From the NCBI RefSeq assembly GCF_020866905.1, contig NZ_JAIVCC010000005.1, positions 856,088-920,087 of the forward strand: 64,000 bases of DNA, read 5' to 3'. The DNA comes from Salinimicrobium sediminilitoris. GTDB taxonomy: Bacteria > Bacteroidota > Bacteroidia > Flavobacteriales > Flavobacteriaceae. The notes under the pieces are model-generated. The model was given only the letters and a program-made list of their open reading frames with translations, searched no databases and was not told where the DNA came from. A program made the position numbers and the translations under genes. This document shows positions 47,067 through 54,525 of the stretch, one piece after another (the first letter of the stretch is position 1; every line of letters begins with the position of its first letter).

Positions 47067-47678
47067 ATGTCCAGATTAACCACAGACCGTTCAACTGAAG
47101 GGGAAGTCTCCTTTTCCCGGTTTTACAGGATCTTTTTCATCCTGTTTTTAAGCTTTACCCTTAGTATGCCTGCAACTTTGCAGGCACAACGCACCGAGCC
47201 GAACAGCGAAGCTGTAGAAACCAGCGGCGATATCATACTTTTGGCGTTGCCTGCATCGGCTGCACTTAGCAGCGTTGTGATGAAAGACAAAAAAGGTTTT
47301 TGGCAATTCACTAAAAGTTTCGCGACTAATATTGCTATTACAGGGGCACTTAAATATACCATCAATAAGCGAAGGCCTTTCAATGAAGGGGGGCAGGCAT
47401 TTCCCTCGGGACATACATCCATTACATTTCAGGCAGCATCCTTTATCCACAGGAGGTATGGCTTTAAATATAGTATTCCCGGATATTTACTTGCCGGCTG
47501 GACCGGCTACAGCCGTATTTATGCCACGCGCCATGATGGATATGATGTACTTGCCGGGGCAGTGGTAGGCATAGGCAGCAGTTTTTTATTCACTACTCCC
47601 TACCAACGGGAACATATGCAGCTTAGCTTTAAGAGTTCCGAAGATGAATTTTTGCTGGGATTTATTTACAGATTTTAA
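47067..47678 (+). CDS. PAP2-family phosphatase
   Basis: 203 aa with a hydrophobic N-terminal segment (RIFFILFLSFTLSMPATLQA) that may be a cleaved signal. All three acid-phosphatase motifs are present: KYTINKRRPF near 95, the PSGHTS core near 112, and SRIYATRHDGYDVLAG near 150 with catalytic His and Asp. It is shorter and less hydrophobic than lipid-A-type PAP2 enzymes, so it may be a periplasmic phosphatase. It lies 29 bp after the SDR gene. Confidence 0.9.
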   Translation: MSRLTTDRSTEGEVSFSRFYRIFFILFLSFTLSMPATLQAQRTEPNSEAVETSGDIILLALPASAALSSVVMKDKKGFWQFTKSFATNIAITGALKYTINKRRPFNEGGQAFPSGHTSITFQAASFIHRRYGFKYSIPGYLLAGWTGYSRIYATRHDGYDVLAGAVVGIGSSFLFTTPYQREHMQLSFKSSEDEFLLGFIYRF

Positions 47679-49034: not shown

Positions 49035-49118
49035 GGGAGAAATTTGACGTGGAAGCGCTAGAGGAGTTTTCACTGCTTTAGCATTTTTAAGGGTTGCAAT
49101 CAGTCAAATTTTTCCCTG
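49035..49118 (-). promoter_or_regulatory. SAM-II-like riboswitch upstream of metK
   Basis: Read on the minus strand, P1 is AGGG (49117-49114) with CCCT (49093-49090). The loop between them, ATTTGACTGATTGCA, aligns with the known SAM-II loop AUUUAACCGUAUUGCA. Then come TTAAAAATGCTAAAG and CAGT (49075-49072), which can pair back with ACTG (49104-49101) to form the pseudoknot; in the reference this pairing has other bases, so the pair is kept by covariation. A 14-nt arm GTCAAATTTCTCCC (49048-49035) is complementary to GGGAAAAATTTGAC in the aptamer (one mismatch), a possible switching partner. It ends 22 nt before the metK start. Confidence 0.75.
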
Positions 49119-49132
49119 TAATTTTTCAGCAG

Positions 49133-50253: not shown

Positions 50254-50286
50254 TTTGTTCCTTAAAGTTTTCTGTCGTTAACTTTG
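50254..50286 (+). promoter_or_regulatory. Promoter of the met leader and metY operon
   Basis: TTTG at 50254-50257 and TAACTTTG at 50279-50286 match the Bacteroidota -33/-7 consensus, with 21 bp between. The transcript would start about 50293, roughly 12 nt before leader peptide 1. Confidence 0.7.
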
Positions 50287-50304
50287 CCTAATACAAAACA
50301 GGAA

Positions 50305-50373
50305 ATGAAACAGGTAATTTGTAATATGATGTGCATGATGTGGAGAAAGTCCGCAGCGCGTCCTATTGCATGA
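50305..50373 (+). CDS. Met/Cys-rich leader peptide 1
   Basis: 22 codons. It opens MKQVICNMMCMMWRK and ends SAARPIA. Four Met codons and a Cys codon are packed in codons 8-12, and codons 17-18 (GCAGCG, 50353-50358) can pair with CGCTGC in the 5' arm of the terminator at 50394. A ribosome that stalls at the Met codons would leave GCAGCG free (antiterminator), whereas one at the stop codon would cover it (terminator forms). This is the geometry of ribosome-mediated attenuation. The operon downstream makes methionine. Confidence 0.85.
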   Translation: MKQVICNMMCMMWRKSAARPIA

Positions 50374-50393
50374 TCCTGAAAAGATAAAATTGC

Positions 50394-50424
50394 AAAAAGC
50401 CGCTGCCACCGCAGCGGCTTTTTT
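50394..50424 (+). terminator. Attenuator terminator 1 of the met operon
   Basis: AAAAAGCCGCTGC-CACC-GCAGCGGCTTTTT, a 13-bp stem and T run, 20 nt after the leader 1 stop codon. The 3' arm GCAGCG repeats the GCAGCG of the leader ORF. Confidence 0.88.
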
Positions 50425-50442
50425 GTTTTAAGTATAAAACAA

Positions 50443-50473
50443 GAGGTGCCAAAAATGGCATTTTAAAGACCTT
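50443..50473. repeat. Odd-palindrome repeat, copy 8
   Basis: GAGGTGCCAAAAATG-G-CATTTTAAAGACCTT, lying between attenuator 1 and leader peptide 2; it would be part of the leader RNA. Confidence 0.7.
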
Positions 50474-50489
50474 TTAAAAACTAAAGCTG

Positions 50490-50606
50490 ATGACAGCTAA
50501 AACAGAAAAAATGAAAATTAACCCGGTAACAGCAATGATGATGCGTTGTATGATGATGTGCATGATGTGCGCAGGAAATCGCTATTGCCAAAAGATGAGG
50601 ATCTAA
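50490..50606 (+). CDS. Met/Cys-rich leader peptide 2
   Basis: 38 codons from ATG 50490; an alternative ATG lies at 50511. The core AMMMRCMMMCMMCAG gives eight Met and three Cys in codons 16-27. Eleven of 38 residues are Met and four Cys. The last codons hold GCCAAA (50587-50592) and GGAT, which can pair with ATCC and TTTGGC in the 5' arm of the terminator at 50629. It shares ATGATGTGCATGATGTG with leader 1, so the two probably arose by duplication. Confidence 0.85.
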   Translation: MTAKTEKMKINPVTAMMMRCMMMCMMCAGNRYCQKMRI

Positions 50607-50628
50607 TTTAGTTATATATTCAGTTACT

Positions 50629-50668
50629 AAAATCCCTTTGGCAAGCGAGTCAAAGGGATTTTTTTTTT
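50629..50668 (+). terminator. Attenuator terminator 2 of the met operon
   Basis: AAAATCCCTTTG-GCAAGCGAGT-CAAAGGGATTTT followed by six more Ts; 12-bp stem, 22 nt after the leader 2 stop codon. Confidence 0.88.
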
Positions 50669-50691: not shown

Positions 50692-51110
50692 CGAAGCACC
50701 AACTTTCAAGCACCAAATTCCAATTTGGAAAGGGTTTTTTAATCCGCAACCCGCAACCCGCAACCCGCAACCCGCAACCCGCAACAATAAACAGTAAACA
50801 ATGAACAATAATCAGTCACCAATGAGTAAAAGACAACAACAGAGGAAACCCGGATGAGATCTCTCGTCGCATCTCCTTTCTCCGAAAGAAAATGCTCTGT
50901 CGAGATGACAATTAAAAATTAGAAAACCGAGAACCGAGAACCGACAACAAAAACTTAAAAAGCATCTAGTACCAAATTCCAAATTCCAAATTGGGAAAAT
51001 TAAAACATTCGTGAATTCGAGGCCATTTTTAACCCGCAACCGACAACGCAACCATAAACCATAAACCCGAAACAACAAACAATTAAACCTTAAACTTTAA
51101 ACATTGAACC
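50692..51110. repeat. Long heptad-repeat spacer before metY
   Basis: About 420 bp made largely of 7-bp steps: AAGCACC/AAATTCC (50698-50730), CCGCAAC x6 (50742-50785), AATAAAC, AGTAAAC, AATGAAC, AATAATC, AGTCACC, AATGAGT (50786-50828), AGAACCG x2-3 (50922-50945), CCAAATT x3 (50972-50994), and AACCATA x2, AACCCGA, AACAACA, AACAATT, AAACCTT, AAACTTT, AAACATT (51048-51105). The last array runs up to the metY start. It would form an untranslated leader after attenuator 2. No ORF. Confidence 0.85.
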
Positions 51111-51111
51111 C

Positions 51112-52416
51112 ATGAATACACCACAAAAATTTTCGACCAACGCCCTGCATGCAGGCCATGACGTAACAACAAATGGCGGAACCAGAGCAGTTCCCATTTA
51201 CCAAACAACTTCTTACGTCTTCAAAGATTCAGATCACGCTGCAAATCTATTTTCCCTGGCCGAACCGGGCTTCATTTACACCCGACTGAACAACCCAACA
51301 AATGATGTACTGGAGCAAAGGCTGGCGGCGCTCGAAGGCGGGATCGCTGCTGTAGTAACAGCATCTGGAACGGCGGCCATAAGCACAACGCTGCTCACCC
51401 TGCTAAAAACCGGAGATCATATCGTCGCTTCCAGCAGTCTTTACGGCGGAACTTACAATCTACTGGGCGTTACTTTACCCAGGCTCGGCATCAATACTAC
51501 TTTTGTAGATCCTACAGATCCAAAAAATTTCTCTGAAGCTGTAAAAGAGAATACCCGTGCAATTTTTGTAGAGTCACTTGGAAACCCGAAGCTCGATGTG
51601 CTCGATCTGCAGGCGATTTCCAAAGTGGCTAAGGAACATAAAGTTCCATTTATAGTGGATAATACAGTAGCCACTTCTGCTTTGGTCAAACCTATAGATC
51701 ATGGCGCCGACCTGGTGATCCATTCCCTCACAAAATACATCGCCGGCAATGGTACTTCTCTCGGCGGAGTCATTAACGACGCCGGAAAATTTGATTGGGC
51801 CAACGGCAAATTTCCGGAATTCACCGAACCGTCTCCCGGTTACCACGGACTCGTTTATCACGATGCTTTAAAAGAAGCAGCCTTTATAGCTAAAGTAAGG
51901 ATCGAAGGCTTACGGGATTTAGGCGCTGCCCTTAGTCCGTTCAATGCTTTTCAGATCATTCAGGGGTTAGAGACCCTGGAGATAAGGATCAAAAAACACA
52001 GCGAAAATGCATTGGCTTTGGCAAAATGGCTGCAGCAAAAAGAAGAAGTGAGCTGGGTGAACTATCCCGGGCTGGAGAGCAGTGCTTATTATAAACTGGC
52101 ACAAAAATATCTTCCAAAAGGGCAAAGCGGAGTGGTGACTTTTGGAGTGAAAGGCGGCTATGAAGCTGCAAAAGTGTTAGTGGACCAAACAAAACTTTTC
52201 TCTTTGCTAGCCAATATTGGGGATACTAAATCTTTGATCATTCACCCCGCCAGCACTACGCATCAGCAGTTAAATGACCAGCAGCAGGAATCAACCGGTG
52301 TAACAAAGGATCTGGTAAGACTTTCTGTTGGTTTGGAAGACCTGGAAGATCTTAAAGCAGACCTGGAACAGGCCCTGGCGCAAATTTCCAATAAGAAAGC
52401 AGTTAAAACAGCATAA
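51112..52416 (+). CDS. metY: O-acetylhomoserine aminocarboxypropyltransferase
   Basis: 434 aa, the usual length. PLP-enzyme of the Cys/Met metabolism family: PIYQTTSYVFKDSDHAAN near 28, ASGTAAISTTLLTLLKTGDH near 83, SSLYGGTYNLLG near 106, and the PLP-Lys in HSLTKYIAGNGTSLGGVI near 207. It joins O-acetylhomoserine with sulfide to give homocysteine (or with methanethiol to give methionine). First gene of the operon metY-metX-hom-osmC, preceded by two attenuators. Confidence 0.95.
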   Translation: MNTPQKFSTNALHAGHDVTTNGGTRAVPIYQTTSYVFKDSDHAANLFSLAEPGFIYTRLNNPTNDVLEQRLAALEGGIAAVVTASGTAAISTTLLTLLKTGDHIVASSSLYGGTYNLLGVTLPRLGINTTFVDPTDPKNFSEAVKENTRAIFVESLGNPKLDVLDLQAISKVAKEHKVPFIVDNTVATSALVKPIDHGADLVIHSLTKYIAGNGTSLGGVINDAGKFDWANGKFPEFTEPSPGYHGLVYHDALKEAAFIAKVRIEGLRDLGAALSPFNAFQIIQGLETLEIRIKKHSENALALAKWLQQKEEVSWVNYPGLESSAYYKLAQKYLPKGQSGVVTFGVKGGYEAAKVLVDQTKLFSLLANIGDTKSLIIHPASTTHQQLNDQQQESTGVTKDLVRLSVGLEDLEDLKADLEQALAQISNKKAVKTA

Positions 52417-52472: not shown

Positions 52473-53486
52473 ATGTTACAGGAAATCATACTTCCCGACT
52501 TTGAAAATTCCGGCGGCAGCCTTCAAAAAATTCATGTGTTTTTTCGCTTTTTTGGCAGGGAAGCCGGCACTGCGCCTGTAGTGCTGGTGAATCATGCCCT
52601 TACGGGAAATGCCGATGTCACGGGAGAGAAAGGCTGGTGGAAGGAACTGATTGGTCCCAACAAATGTATCGACACCAACAGGTTTTGCATCCTGGCGATC
52701 AACGTTCCCGGCAATGGCGCAAGTGGGAATAGTGAACATCTGTTGCACAATTACACAGAATTTACCATACATGATGTGGCCAGGATCTTTTCCTCTGTTC
52801 TTGAGGAGCTGAAGATCGAAAGCCTTTTTGCAGCCATTGGTGGATCAATCGGCGGAGCTCTTGCCTGGCATCTGGCAGTGCTAAAGCCAAACCTCATACA
52901 AAACCTAATTCCCATAGCGACCGATCTCAAGGCTACCGACTGGGTGCTGGGGCAGTGTAAGGTACAGGACCAGATCCTCAACAATTCGGTAGATCCCATT
53001 CACGATGCCCGCATGCACGCGATGACTTTTTATCGTACTCCGGCTTCCTTTTCAGCAAAATTCCGCCGGAAAAGGAACGAACTCAATTTCCAGTTTGAAG
53101 TGGCGAACTGGCTAAGCTATCACGGCAGGAGGCTGGAAGGCCGGTTTGAACTCGCAGCTTATAAGCTAATGAACCATTTGCTTACTACCATAGATGTTTC
53201 GGGAGGGAAAGGGGAACCTTCAGCAGCTGCTAAAAAGATCAGCGGGAGTATCCATCTTATAGGGATCGATAGCGACCTGTTTTTTCTTCCGGAGGAAATA
53301 AGGGGAACCTATCGGGAACTTTCCGAAGTAAAGGAAAATGTGAGTTACCACGAGATCAAGTCTATTCATGGCCACGATGCTTTTCTTATCGAATATGAGC
53401 AGTTATCACAAATTTTAGATTCCATTTTTAATCAAAATAACACACAAAATGAAGAAAATAAATATAGTTCTCTTTGGAACCGGTAA
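52473..53486 (+). CDS. metX: Homoserine O-acetyltransferase (alpha/beta hydrolase fold)
   Basis: 337 aa. VLVNHALTGNADVTGEKGWW near residue 37 is the oxyanion region; IDTNRFCILAINVPGNGAS follows; the nucleophile Ser is in IGGSIGGALAWHLAV near 128; the acid residue is likely in LIGIDSDLFFLPEE near 265, and the His in IHGHDAFLIEYEQL near 302. The enzyme acetylates homoserine for the following sulfhydrylation. Its 3' end overlaps the hom start by 38 bp, so the two are translationally linked. Confidence 0.9.
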   Translation: MLQEIILPDFENSGGSLQKIHVFFRFFGREAGTAPVVLVNHALTGNADVTGEKGWWKELIGPNKCIDTNRFCILAINVPGNGASGNSEHLLHNYTEFTIHDVARIFSSVLEELKIESLFAAIGGSIGGALAWHLAVLKPNLIQNLIPIATDLKATDWVLGQCKVQDQILNNSVDPIHDARMHAMTFYRTPASFSAKFRRKRNELNFQFEVANWLSYHGRRLEGRFELAAYKLMNHLLTTIDVSGGKGEPSAAAKKISGSIHLIGIDSDLFFLPEEIRGTYRELSEVKENVSYHEIKSIHGHDAFLIEYEQLSQILDSIFNQNNTQNEENKYSSLWNR

Positions 53487-54525
53487 CGTAGGAAGTATCC
53501 TTGTAAATCAAATTTTGCAGGCCCGGGAATCACTTCAGCAGAAAGAAGACCTTGAGATCAACCTGCCCGTCATCGCTAATTCTACAACAGCTTTTTTTCA
53601 AAAGGAGAATCAGCAGCCTTCGTGGGAAGCCGATCTAAAGAATTTCGGTTTTCCTTATAAGCTGGAGGATATTCTGGATTATGTGCAAAAACAGCAGTAC
53701 GAGAATCTTATTGCCGTAGATGCTACGGCCAGTGAGGAATTTGTGGATAATTATCTTGATCTTATTCGTGGCGGTTTTCACATCGTTGCCGCCAATAAGG
53801 TAGCCAATACCCTTTCGTCTCAATTCTATACTCAATTACGGGAAACGTTGCAGGAGCACAACAAGCATTTTCTCTATGAGACAAACGTGGGTGCCGGATT
53901 GCCAGTTATTGAGACCCTGCGGAATTTTTATCGTGCCAATGAGCGGGTGACAAAGGTGAGGGGAGTATTTTCAGGTTCTCTTAGCTATATCTTCAATACC
54001 TATTGCGAGGTGGAAAAGGCATTTTCGGAAGTTCTTACCGAAGCGGCCGACAAAGGTTTCACAGAACCCGATCCACGGGTAGACCTTTCTGGAAAAGATG
54101 TTGCCCGTAAGCTGTTGATCCTTGGCAGGGAACTGGGGTTACAAAAAGAGTTTGAGGAGATAAGCATTCAGGACCTGGTGCCGGTTCATCTCAACGGGCA
54201 ATCTACCCTCAAGAATTTTCAAAAGAAAAAGAAGGATCTGGACCCGATTTTTCTGAAACTAAAAAAGGATCTTAGGCATGATGAGGTACTACGGCATGTT
54301 GGCGAGCTGGATCTTCAAACCGGAATTCTGGATGTGAAACTGGTGACCGAAAACCGAACTTCTGCCCTTGGCAGCCTTAAAAATGCCGATTCTTCCTTTG
54401 AAATATTTACAGAATCTTATGGCGAGCAGCCTTTGGTCATTAAAGGCGCGGGTGCAGGAGCCGCAGTGACGGCACGTGGAGTTCTTACAGATTTAATTAA
54501 ATTAGCCGAAAAATTACCCTCATGA
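53449..54525 (+). CDS. hom: Homoserine dehydrogenase (stand-alone)
   Basis: 358 aa. N-terminal NAD(P) site NIVLFGTGNVGSILVNQIL at residues 4-22; the catalytic part has AANKVANTLSSQFYTQL near 114, YETNVGAGLPVIETLRNFY near 143, VFSGSLSYIFNTYCEVEKAF near 170 and GKDVARKLLILGRELGL near 220. It resembles the dehydrogenase half of ThrA/MetL without the aspartokinase and ACT parts. It reduces aspartate semialdehyde to homoserine, the precursor for metX. The ATG lies inside metX and its stop overlaps the osmC start by 4 bp (ATGA). Confidence 0.93.
   Translation: MKKINIVLFGTGNVGSILVNQILQARESLQQKEDLEINLPVIANSTTAFFQKENQQPSWEADLKNFGFPYKLEDILDYVQKQQYENLIAVDATASEEFVDNYLDLIRGGFHIVAANKVANTLSSQFYTQLRETLQEHNKHFLYETNVGAGLPVIETLRNFYRANERVTKVRGVFSGSLSYIFNTYCEVEKAFSEVLTEAADKGFTEPDPRVDLSGKDVARKLLILGRELGLQKEFEEISIQDLVPVHLNGQSTLKNFQKKKKDLDPIFLKLKKDLRHDEVLRHVGELDLQTGILDVKLVTENRTSALGSLKNADSSFEIFTESYGEQPLVIKGAGAGAAVTARGVLTDLIKLAEKLPS

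Follow-up and report, generated by a model that had tools for sequence, protein, structure and literature searches.

The DNA at 50254-50668 of the 64,000-nt stretch of Salinimicrobium sediminilitoris analysed here (the window) lies in front of a methionine operon, metY-metX-hom, and raises the question of how that operon is controlled. An original prediction, made from the letters alone, held that two short Met-rich leader ORFs, each followed by its own terminator, lie there in series and govern the operon by ribosome stalling. The two-attenuator reading is supported by the comparisons described below, and we consider it very probable that metY-metX-hom is governed by a series of two ribosome-mediated transcription attenuators. 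Added to that reading here are a putative protector helix in leader 1, an enrichment of Cys that equals that of Met, and an alternation with the SAM-I riboswitch among relatives.

The features of the window copy are collected in Table 1. Re-reading and recomputation reproduced the promoter, the 22-codon ORF1 with its four clustered Met codons and the 13-bp terminator that had been predicted. A sigma-70 scan of the DNA 5' of ORF1 in the window found no promoter there; the Bacteroidota pattern did match, and we take the promoter at 50254-50286 to be of that class. The strict form of this pattern stands 5' of ORF1 in 15 of 25 leader-1 units. ORF2 had been described as having 38 codons, with eight Met and three Cys in codons 16-27. 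This composition held, and 38 codons are indeed obtained from the less conserved upstream start at 50490; however, the in-frame ATG at 50511 is the start kept in relatives, and the probable length of ORF2 is corrected to 31 codons. Both predicted pairings, GCAGCG with CGCTGC and GCCAAA plus GGAT with TTTGGC plus ATCC, exist in the window, and that of leader 2 is part of a longer one, TTGCCAAA:TTTGGCAA, with TTTAGT:ACTAAA as an additional inner pairing. In the fold of leader 1, the Met codons lie within a protector hairpin that ties up the antiterminator segment. The operon 3' of the leaders makes the amino acid that would be read in them, by way of metY and the metX-like and homoserine dehydrogenase-like genes, the last two of which score below their cut-offs. 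Window metY is 91-96% identical to that of five Salinimicrobium records. The metX-like and homoserine dehydrogenase-like ORFs share 38 nt (53449-53486).

Table 1. Features of the leader region and operon in the window copy.
Feature	Position	Strand	Basis
Promoter, Bacteroidota-type (assumed class), TTTG-N21-TAACTTTG	50254-50286	+	pattern match
Leader ORF1, MKQVICNMMCMMWRKSAARPIA, 22 codons, Met at codons 8, 9, 11, 12	50305-50373	+	
Protector hairpin (region 1:2) of leader 1	50311-50378	+	fold and pair counts
Antiterminator segment of leader 1, GCAGCG, codons 17-18	50353-50358	+	complement of terminator 1 5' arm
Terminator 1, 13-bp stem then U run	50394-50423	+	-20.8 kcal/mol
Leader ORF2 from conserved start, MKINPVTAMMMRCMMMCMMCAGNRYCQKMRI, 31 codons	50511-50606	+	
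Antiterminator segment of leader 2, GCTATTGCCAAA plus GGAT	50581-50602	+	complement of terminator 2 5' arm and loop
Terminator 2, 14-bp stem, U run to about 50668	50629-50662	+	-18.4 kcal/mol
metY, O-acetylhomoserine/O-acetylserine sulfhydrylase, first gene past the leaders	51112-52416	+	NCBIfam TIGR01326, 654 bits, cut-off 495
metX-like homoserine acetyltransferase	52473-53486	+	TIGR01392, 197 bits, below curated cut-off 500
Homoserine dehydrogenase-like gene	53449-54525	+	C-terminal part of PRK09436, 358 bits, below cut-off 726

Chance alone did not produce such units. When a unit is defined as an ORF of 12-60 codons with at least five Met, at least four of them within six codons, and a terminator 5-45 nt past the stop codon, the 64-kb window holds two, and none turned up in any of 25 dinucleotide shuffles. 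Another Met-cluster ORF, the third in the window (47458-47568), overlaps a gene on the same strand (47067-47678) and is without a terminator. The original prediction further implied that relatives that keep metY should keep the short ORFs. We searched the 12 genomes of the genus with covariance models of leader 1 (R1, 24 sequences) and leader 2 (R2, 19 sequences; these 12 genomes were the scope of the R2 search) and found leader 1 in 11 of them, at 84.8-131.5 bits, and leader 2 likewise in 11, at 62.7-145.8 bits. In the exception, G003, a metY search at E <= 1e-60 gave nothing and the R1 and R2 matches are all below 38 bits; metY is present in the other 11. Most genus genomes, or near-identical named records, had been fed into the two models, which makes the scores dependent on that input but leaves the co-occurrence with metY as independent evidence. 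One genome (G001) carries its leaders on contig C26 and metY at the start of contig C6, and linkage is not visible there.

Conservation of the alternative pairings was measured in alignments of 24 of the 25 leader-1 units (L008 omitted) and 19 of the 22 leader-2 units (L008, L091 and L146 omitted), with L005, which is near-identical to the window copy, kept in both. The antiterminator of leader 1, formed by codons 17-18 plus one base with the terminator 5' arm, is paired in 87.5% of cells versus 29.8-47.6% in slid versions, and that of leader 2 in 82.2% versus 30.3-51.2%. In leader 1, 13 cells are changed on both sides versus 4.4 in shuffled alignments, and the covariation score is 0.230 versus 0.079; in leader 2 the corresponding values are 8 versus 3.4 cells and 0.184 versus 0.137, and neither score was reached in 500 shuffles, support that lies in cells and score and can be inflated by relatedness. 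Counted by base pair, two-sided changes stay within the shuffled range in both antiterminators, with 2 versus 1.3 shuffled in the first (reached by 169 of 500) and 4 versus 2.6 in the second (reached by 95 of 500). Terminators 1 and 2 are paired in 95.5% and 97.2% of cells, and both covary (0 of 500 shuffles reach their scores); since the ORF tail and the 3' arm share the same 5' arm, the covariation of antiterminator and terminator is not independent. Met runs are conserved with drifting positions and flanks and the alternative pairings covary, as the original prediction had expected of a working device. The protector hairpin of leader 1 is paired in 78.6% of cells, with a covariation of 0.245 versus 0.174 shuffled (0 of 500), on a structure taken from the window copy, a choice that favours the protector against slid versions; the outer helix by itself does not reach significance (43 of 500 shuffles).

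Folding of 25 leader-1 and 18 leader-2 units (L061, L091, L146 and L193 being outside the leader-2 set, and L184 in neither) gives a similar picture. We folded the RNA that would be free past a ribosome at the last Met of the run, without the terminator 3' arm, and compared it with 60 shuffled tails. Pairs between ORF tail and 5' arm exceed the shuffled mean in 25 of 25 leader-1 and 18 of 18 leader-2 units, and their mean expected number is 8.1 versus 4.3 shuffled for leader 1 and 8.1 versus 3.3 for leader 2; single units are often not extreme against their own shuffled tails: L125, for instance, ranks 24 of 60, and the second leader of L008 ranks 28 of 60. In the window copy both terminators are more stable than the competing antiterminators (-20.8 versus -15.5 kcal/mol in leader 1, -18.4 versus -15.3 kcal/mol in leader 2), so antitermination must be kinetic. 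In folds of the ribosome-free RNA, the protector is the preferred structure of leader 1 in 17 of 25 units and not in the other 8, whereas leader 2 prefers the antiterminator in 14 of 18 and the protector in 4, the window copy not being among these four. Leader 1 as modelled has the trp/his-type layout with a protector and leader 2 mostly lacks one, and from folding the two gates are predicted to differ in their default states.

From the anatomy, conservation and covariation shown here, and the alternation with SAM-I, we infer the following course of events, in which translation, stalling, tRNA sensing, default states and multiplication are proposed. Each leader ORF would be translated right behind RNA polymerase. 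If Met-tRNA (and probably Cys-tRNA too) were short, the ribosome would stall in the Met/Cys run and leave the ORF end free; that end could then pair with the terminator 5' arm ahead of synthesis of the 3' arm, and transcription would continue. With the tRNAs charged, the ribosome would reach the stop codon and cover the ORF end, and the terminator would form. By usual footprint sizes, a ribosome in the Met run of ORF1 would have its edge near 50350, just short of GCAGCG at 50353, and one at the ORF1 stop codon would cover from about 50354 on. When untranslated, leader 1 would be closed by its protector hairpin and leader 2, mostly without a protector, would be open. Since transcripts would have to pass both gates, repression would be expected to multiply.

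How widely this device serves metY was surveyed in 199 genomes of the Flavobacteriaceae, 140 of which have metY at E <= 1e-150; all 140 upstream regions were read, up to about 1.3 kb. A SAM-I riboswitch lies 5' of metY in 107 regions (14 by Rfam and 93 by a sequence pattern, with 17 of 17 pattern cases tried in Rfam confirmed). Met leaders lie there in 15, of which 11, including the window genome, are tandem and four have leader 1 alone (L068, L125, L127 and L184); in four tandems (L061, L091, L146 and L193) the second unit, and in L184 the single leader, was identified by eye, and the second terminators of L091 and L146 are weak. One region (L133) has SAM-II on the metY strand, and 17 have no recognised element, two of these with the upstream DNA cut off (L057 and L196). 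None of the 140 regions has SAM-I and a Met leader together 5' of metY: Rfam finds no SAM-I 5' of metY in the 15 leader regions, and in the other 125 no Met-cluster ORF is followed by a terminator within 110 nt. Met-rich reading frames that lack such a terminator lie about 0.7-1.3 kb away in ten of those 125. Both states occur within a single genus (g93), where one genome (G103) has a leader and another (G318) SAM-I (75.8 bits) 5' of metY, in both cases behind metK. Two regions with tandem leaders 5' of metY (L072 and L082) have a SAM-I riboswitch behind metY, which in L072 stands directly 5' of an ORF that is metX-like by eye. This interchange at one locus makes the proposed charged-tRNA sensing and SAM sensing comparable in close relatives. 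In the window genome itself a SAM-II riboswitch (49068-49123, minus strand, 56.3 bits) lies 5' of metK, which places a SAM sensor at metK and leaders at metY; SAM-II is found on the strand opposite metY in several relatives too.

R1 matches above 60 bits (those below were not counted) occur in at least 33 of 397 family genomes. Among the 33 best R1 family matches the first recognised downstream gene is metY in 28, metX in two (L201 and L263), an O-succinylhomoserine sulfhydrylase-like gene in one (L223) and a TonB-dependent receptor gene in one (L226), and in one (L207) the contig ends and the gene is unseen. In G328 (L226 and L315), leader 1 stands before the TonB-dependent receptor gene and leader 2 alone before metY about 3.2 kb on, each with its own ORF and terminator; the units can therefore be separated. 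This arrangement bears on the idea that one unit only works as an attenuator and the other is a relic or redundant copy. The four of 15 leader-bearing family regions that make do with leader 1, and the poor second terminators of L091 and L146, would suit that idea, but both units are kept in 11 of 12 genus genomes, both antiterminators covary, and the separated units of G328 are each complete, and we judge it unlikely. One-gate and two-gate leaders form a natural series for testing what a second attenuator gains.

Related leaders also stand before other sulfur genes. A tandem lies 5' of metX in G596, and the leader-like ORF of a match before metX in G623 (55.8 bits) contains just one internal Met. 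G649 has one leader 1 (L255) before cysE-cysK-cysJ-cysI-siroheme genes and a tandem before metY-metX-hom, which together look like a sulfur-amino-acid attenuation regulon. In a sample of the class (395 genomes), R1 matched at least four non-family genomes at 52-56 bits; clear tandems outside the family were found in G593 before metY and in G715 before sulfite/nitrite reductase-like and siroheme genes, and the leader device was not recognised in G488 and G559, which match R1 in the same range. Tandem leaders are also present in a MAG record (L008). Of 149 class genomes, 5 have metY at E <= 1e-150, and four of these are family members. Weaker R1 matches, where inspected, are mixed: two at 49-50 bits (G263 and G250) are Met leaders before metY, others (G205, L296 and L299) are without Met leaders, and some within the genus are Asn leaders.

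The leader peptides themselves indicate what might be read. Initiators excluded, Met makes up 19.4% of leader-1 and 24.0% of leader-2 residues (25 and 18 peptides) versus 1.2% in five window proteins, and Cys 8.0% and 14.3% of the same peptides versus 0.4%; the Cys enrichment is as strong as that of Met. This equal enrichment, together with the occurrence of related leaders ahead of metX and of genes for cysteine, sulfite reduction and siroheme, makes it probable that both sulfur amino acids are sensed. From genus to genus Met and Cys change position, but the cluster is kept and their numbers stay similar, and the gaps within the Met cluster are multiples of three. It could be argued that the leaders sense something other than charged tRNA, as a methionine- or SAM-responsive nascent-chain arrest peptide would, or a general slowing of translation, and the C-terminal stretch SAA..I(A/V) of leader 1, conserved in many species, is what such a peptide might show. 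RNA pairing can explain this stretch as well, however, and the drift of Met and Cys positions at similar number also speaks against the idea; we consider sensing of this kind improbable.

In three leaders (L002, L003 and L054) the ORF2 tail is read in another frame (ending ..AIAK, not ..YCQK) with the tail DNA GCTATTGCCAA kept; selection there therefore seems to act on RNA pairing. This observation speaks against functional Met/Cys-rich metal-binding peptides whose terminators merely end their messages, a reading to which the MMCCMMCMMC-like runs, which we take to resemble copper-binding motifs, lend some appeal. Further evidence against it comes from the terminator partners encoded in the ORF ends, from the location ahead of metY, metX or sulfur genes, and from the alternation of the leaders with SAM-I, and we regard it as very improbable. 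A SAM-binding riboswitch or T-box that went unrecognised in this region, as SAM-I and SAM-II at neighbouring genes and at the same site in relatives might suggest, is hardly credible, given that Rfam riboswitch models (SAM included) and T-box models have no match at 50254-50668 at E up to 1 and that the conserved helices found all involve ORF ends and terminators. Other Rfam matches in the region (BTnc231, STnc320, Phe_leader and others) are below gathering scores and were taken as chance matches to terminators.

The tandem plan recurs with another amino acid. To the left of the window, at a distance of about 7.4 kb, asnA (TIGR00669, 405.6 bits) has a leader (L308, G000:C10:848666-848781, minus strand) in which an Asn-rich leader ORF (..FNNNNNNFNNNLNRLRLRKAIIV) and a terminator are followed by another ORF with Asn codons and another hairpin that resembles a terminator; its tail GCTATTATTGTATAA resembles the tail of leader 1, and Asn-rich first leaders like it are present in L297, L302, L303 and L312. 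This recurrence at asnA may point to serial gates as a general design in these bacteria. One may tentatively picture, as possible rather than probable, a Bacteroidota sulfur-amino-acid module of two units with opposite defaults (untranslated, gate 1 closed and gate 2 open) that would read Met- and Cys-tRNA, multiply the response, exchange with SAM-I at one locus even within a genus, and exemplify such a general design.

In trp/his-type attenuation of Proteobacteria, a short ORF rich in the regulated amino acid and protector, antiterminator and terminator helices precede a biosynthetic operon. The leaders described here are alike in the ORF, the antiterminator and the terminator, in the putative protector of leader 1, in standing before a biosynthetic operon, and, as in known attenuators, in a proposed capture of the 5' arm that precedes synthesis of the 3' arm; they are unlike it in their Met/Cys codons, in having two units in series, in a leader 2 mostly without protector, and in belonging to Bacteroidota. 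Mycobacteria have cysteine-responsive polycysteine leader ORFs, in which a sulfur amino acid is also sensed through a short leader ORF, but in another phylum, with Cys runs and a leaderless ORF. The Salmonella mgtCBR leader contains two ORF-based attenuators, mgtM and mgtP, of which the proline-codon-rich mgtP is described as answering conditions predicted to lower proline-charged tRNA (PMC3641672). The likeness is that a single leader holds two ORF-based attenuators; those respond to different signals (ATP and proline) and are called a singular example in the abstract of that report, whereas here both are Met/Cys-rich and lie before a biosynthetic operon. Streptomyces lividans has a putative leader, metL, before metNIQ (PMC8079986), like ours a Met- and Cys-containing ORF before a methionine gene cluster; metL is described as a single unit with a different peptide and no typical Rho-independent terminator, and serves a transporter, not synthesis. 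For Flavobacterium psychrophilum, of the same family, strong clues are given for leader-peptide attenuation 5' of amino-acid biosynthesis operons, in a report whose main text does not contain the word methionine (PMC9723704). Small ORFs reminiscent of leader peptides are described in B. thetaiotaomicron (PMC7366714), and an interchange of leader peptides with T-boxes is also on record (PMC2965389). The original prediction knew of no tandem met attenuator in this phylum, and the open-access library searched brought up no description of one, nor of any Met leader in Bacteroidota; an earlier listing in subscription papers or supplements is possible. The mechanism is of a known kind; new, to judge from that literature, are the use of Met and Cys in this phylum, a tandem whose gates look unequal, and an exchange of the leaders with SAM-I. 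The case for ribosome-mediated methionine/cysteine attenuation in Bacteroidota is here one of comparative evidence, not of one sequence.

Two further features of the DNA around the leaders were observed. Between terminator 1 and ORF2 lies a hairpin-like palindrome, AGGTGCCAAAAATGGCATTTT..ACCT (50443-50471), which is visible in most of nine Salinimicrobium copies and not in L058, and which in some species opens an in-frame 5' extension of ORF2. The spacer of about 440 nt between terminator 2 and metY contains many short direct repeats (CCCGCAA and CCGAGAA/CCGACAA, at 50740-51070) and varies strongly among Salinimicrobium species.
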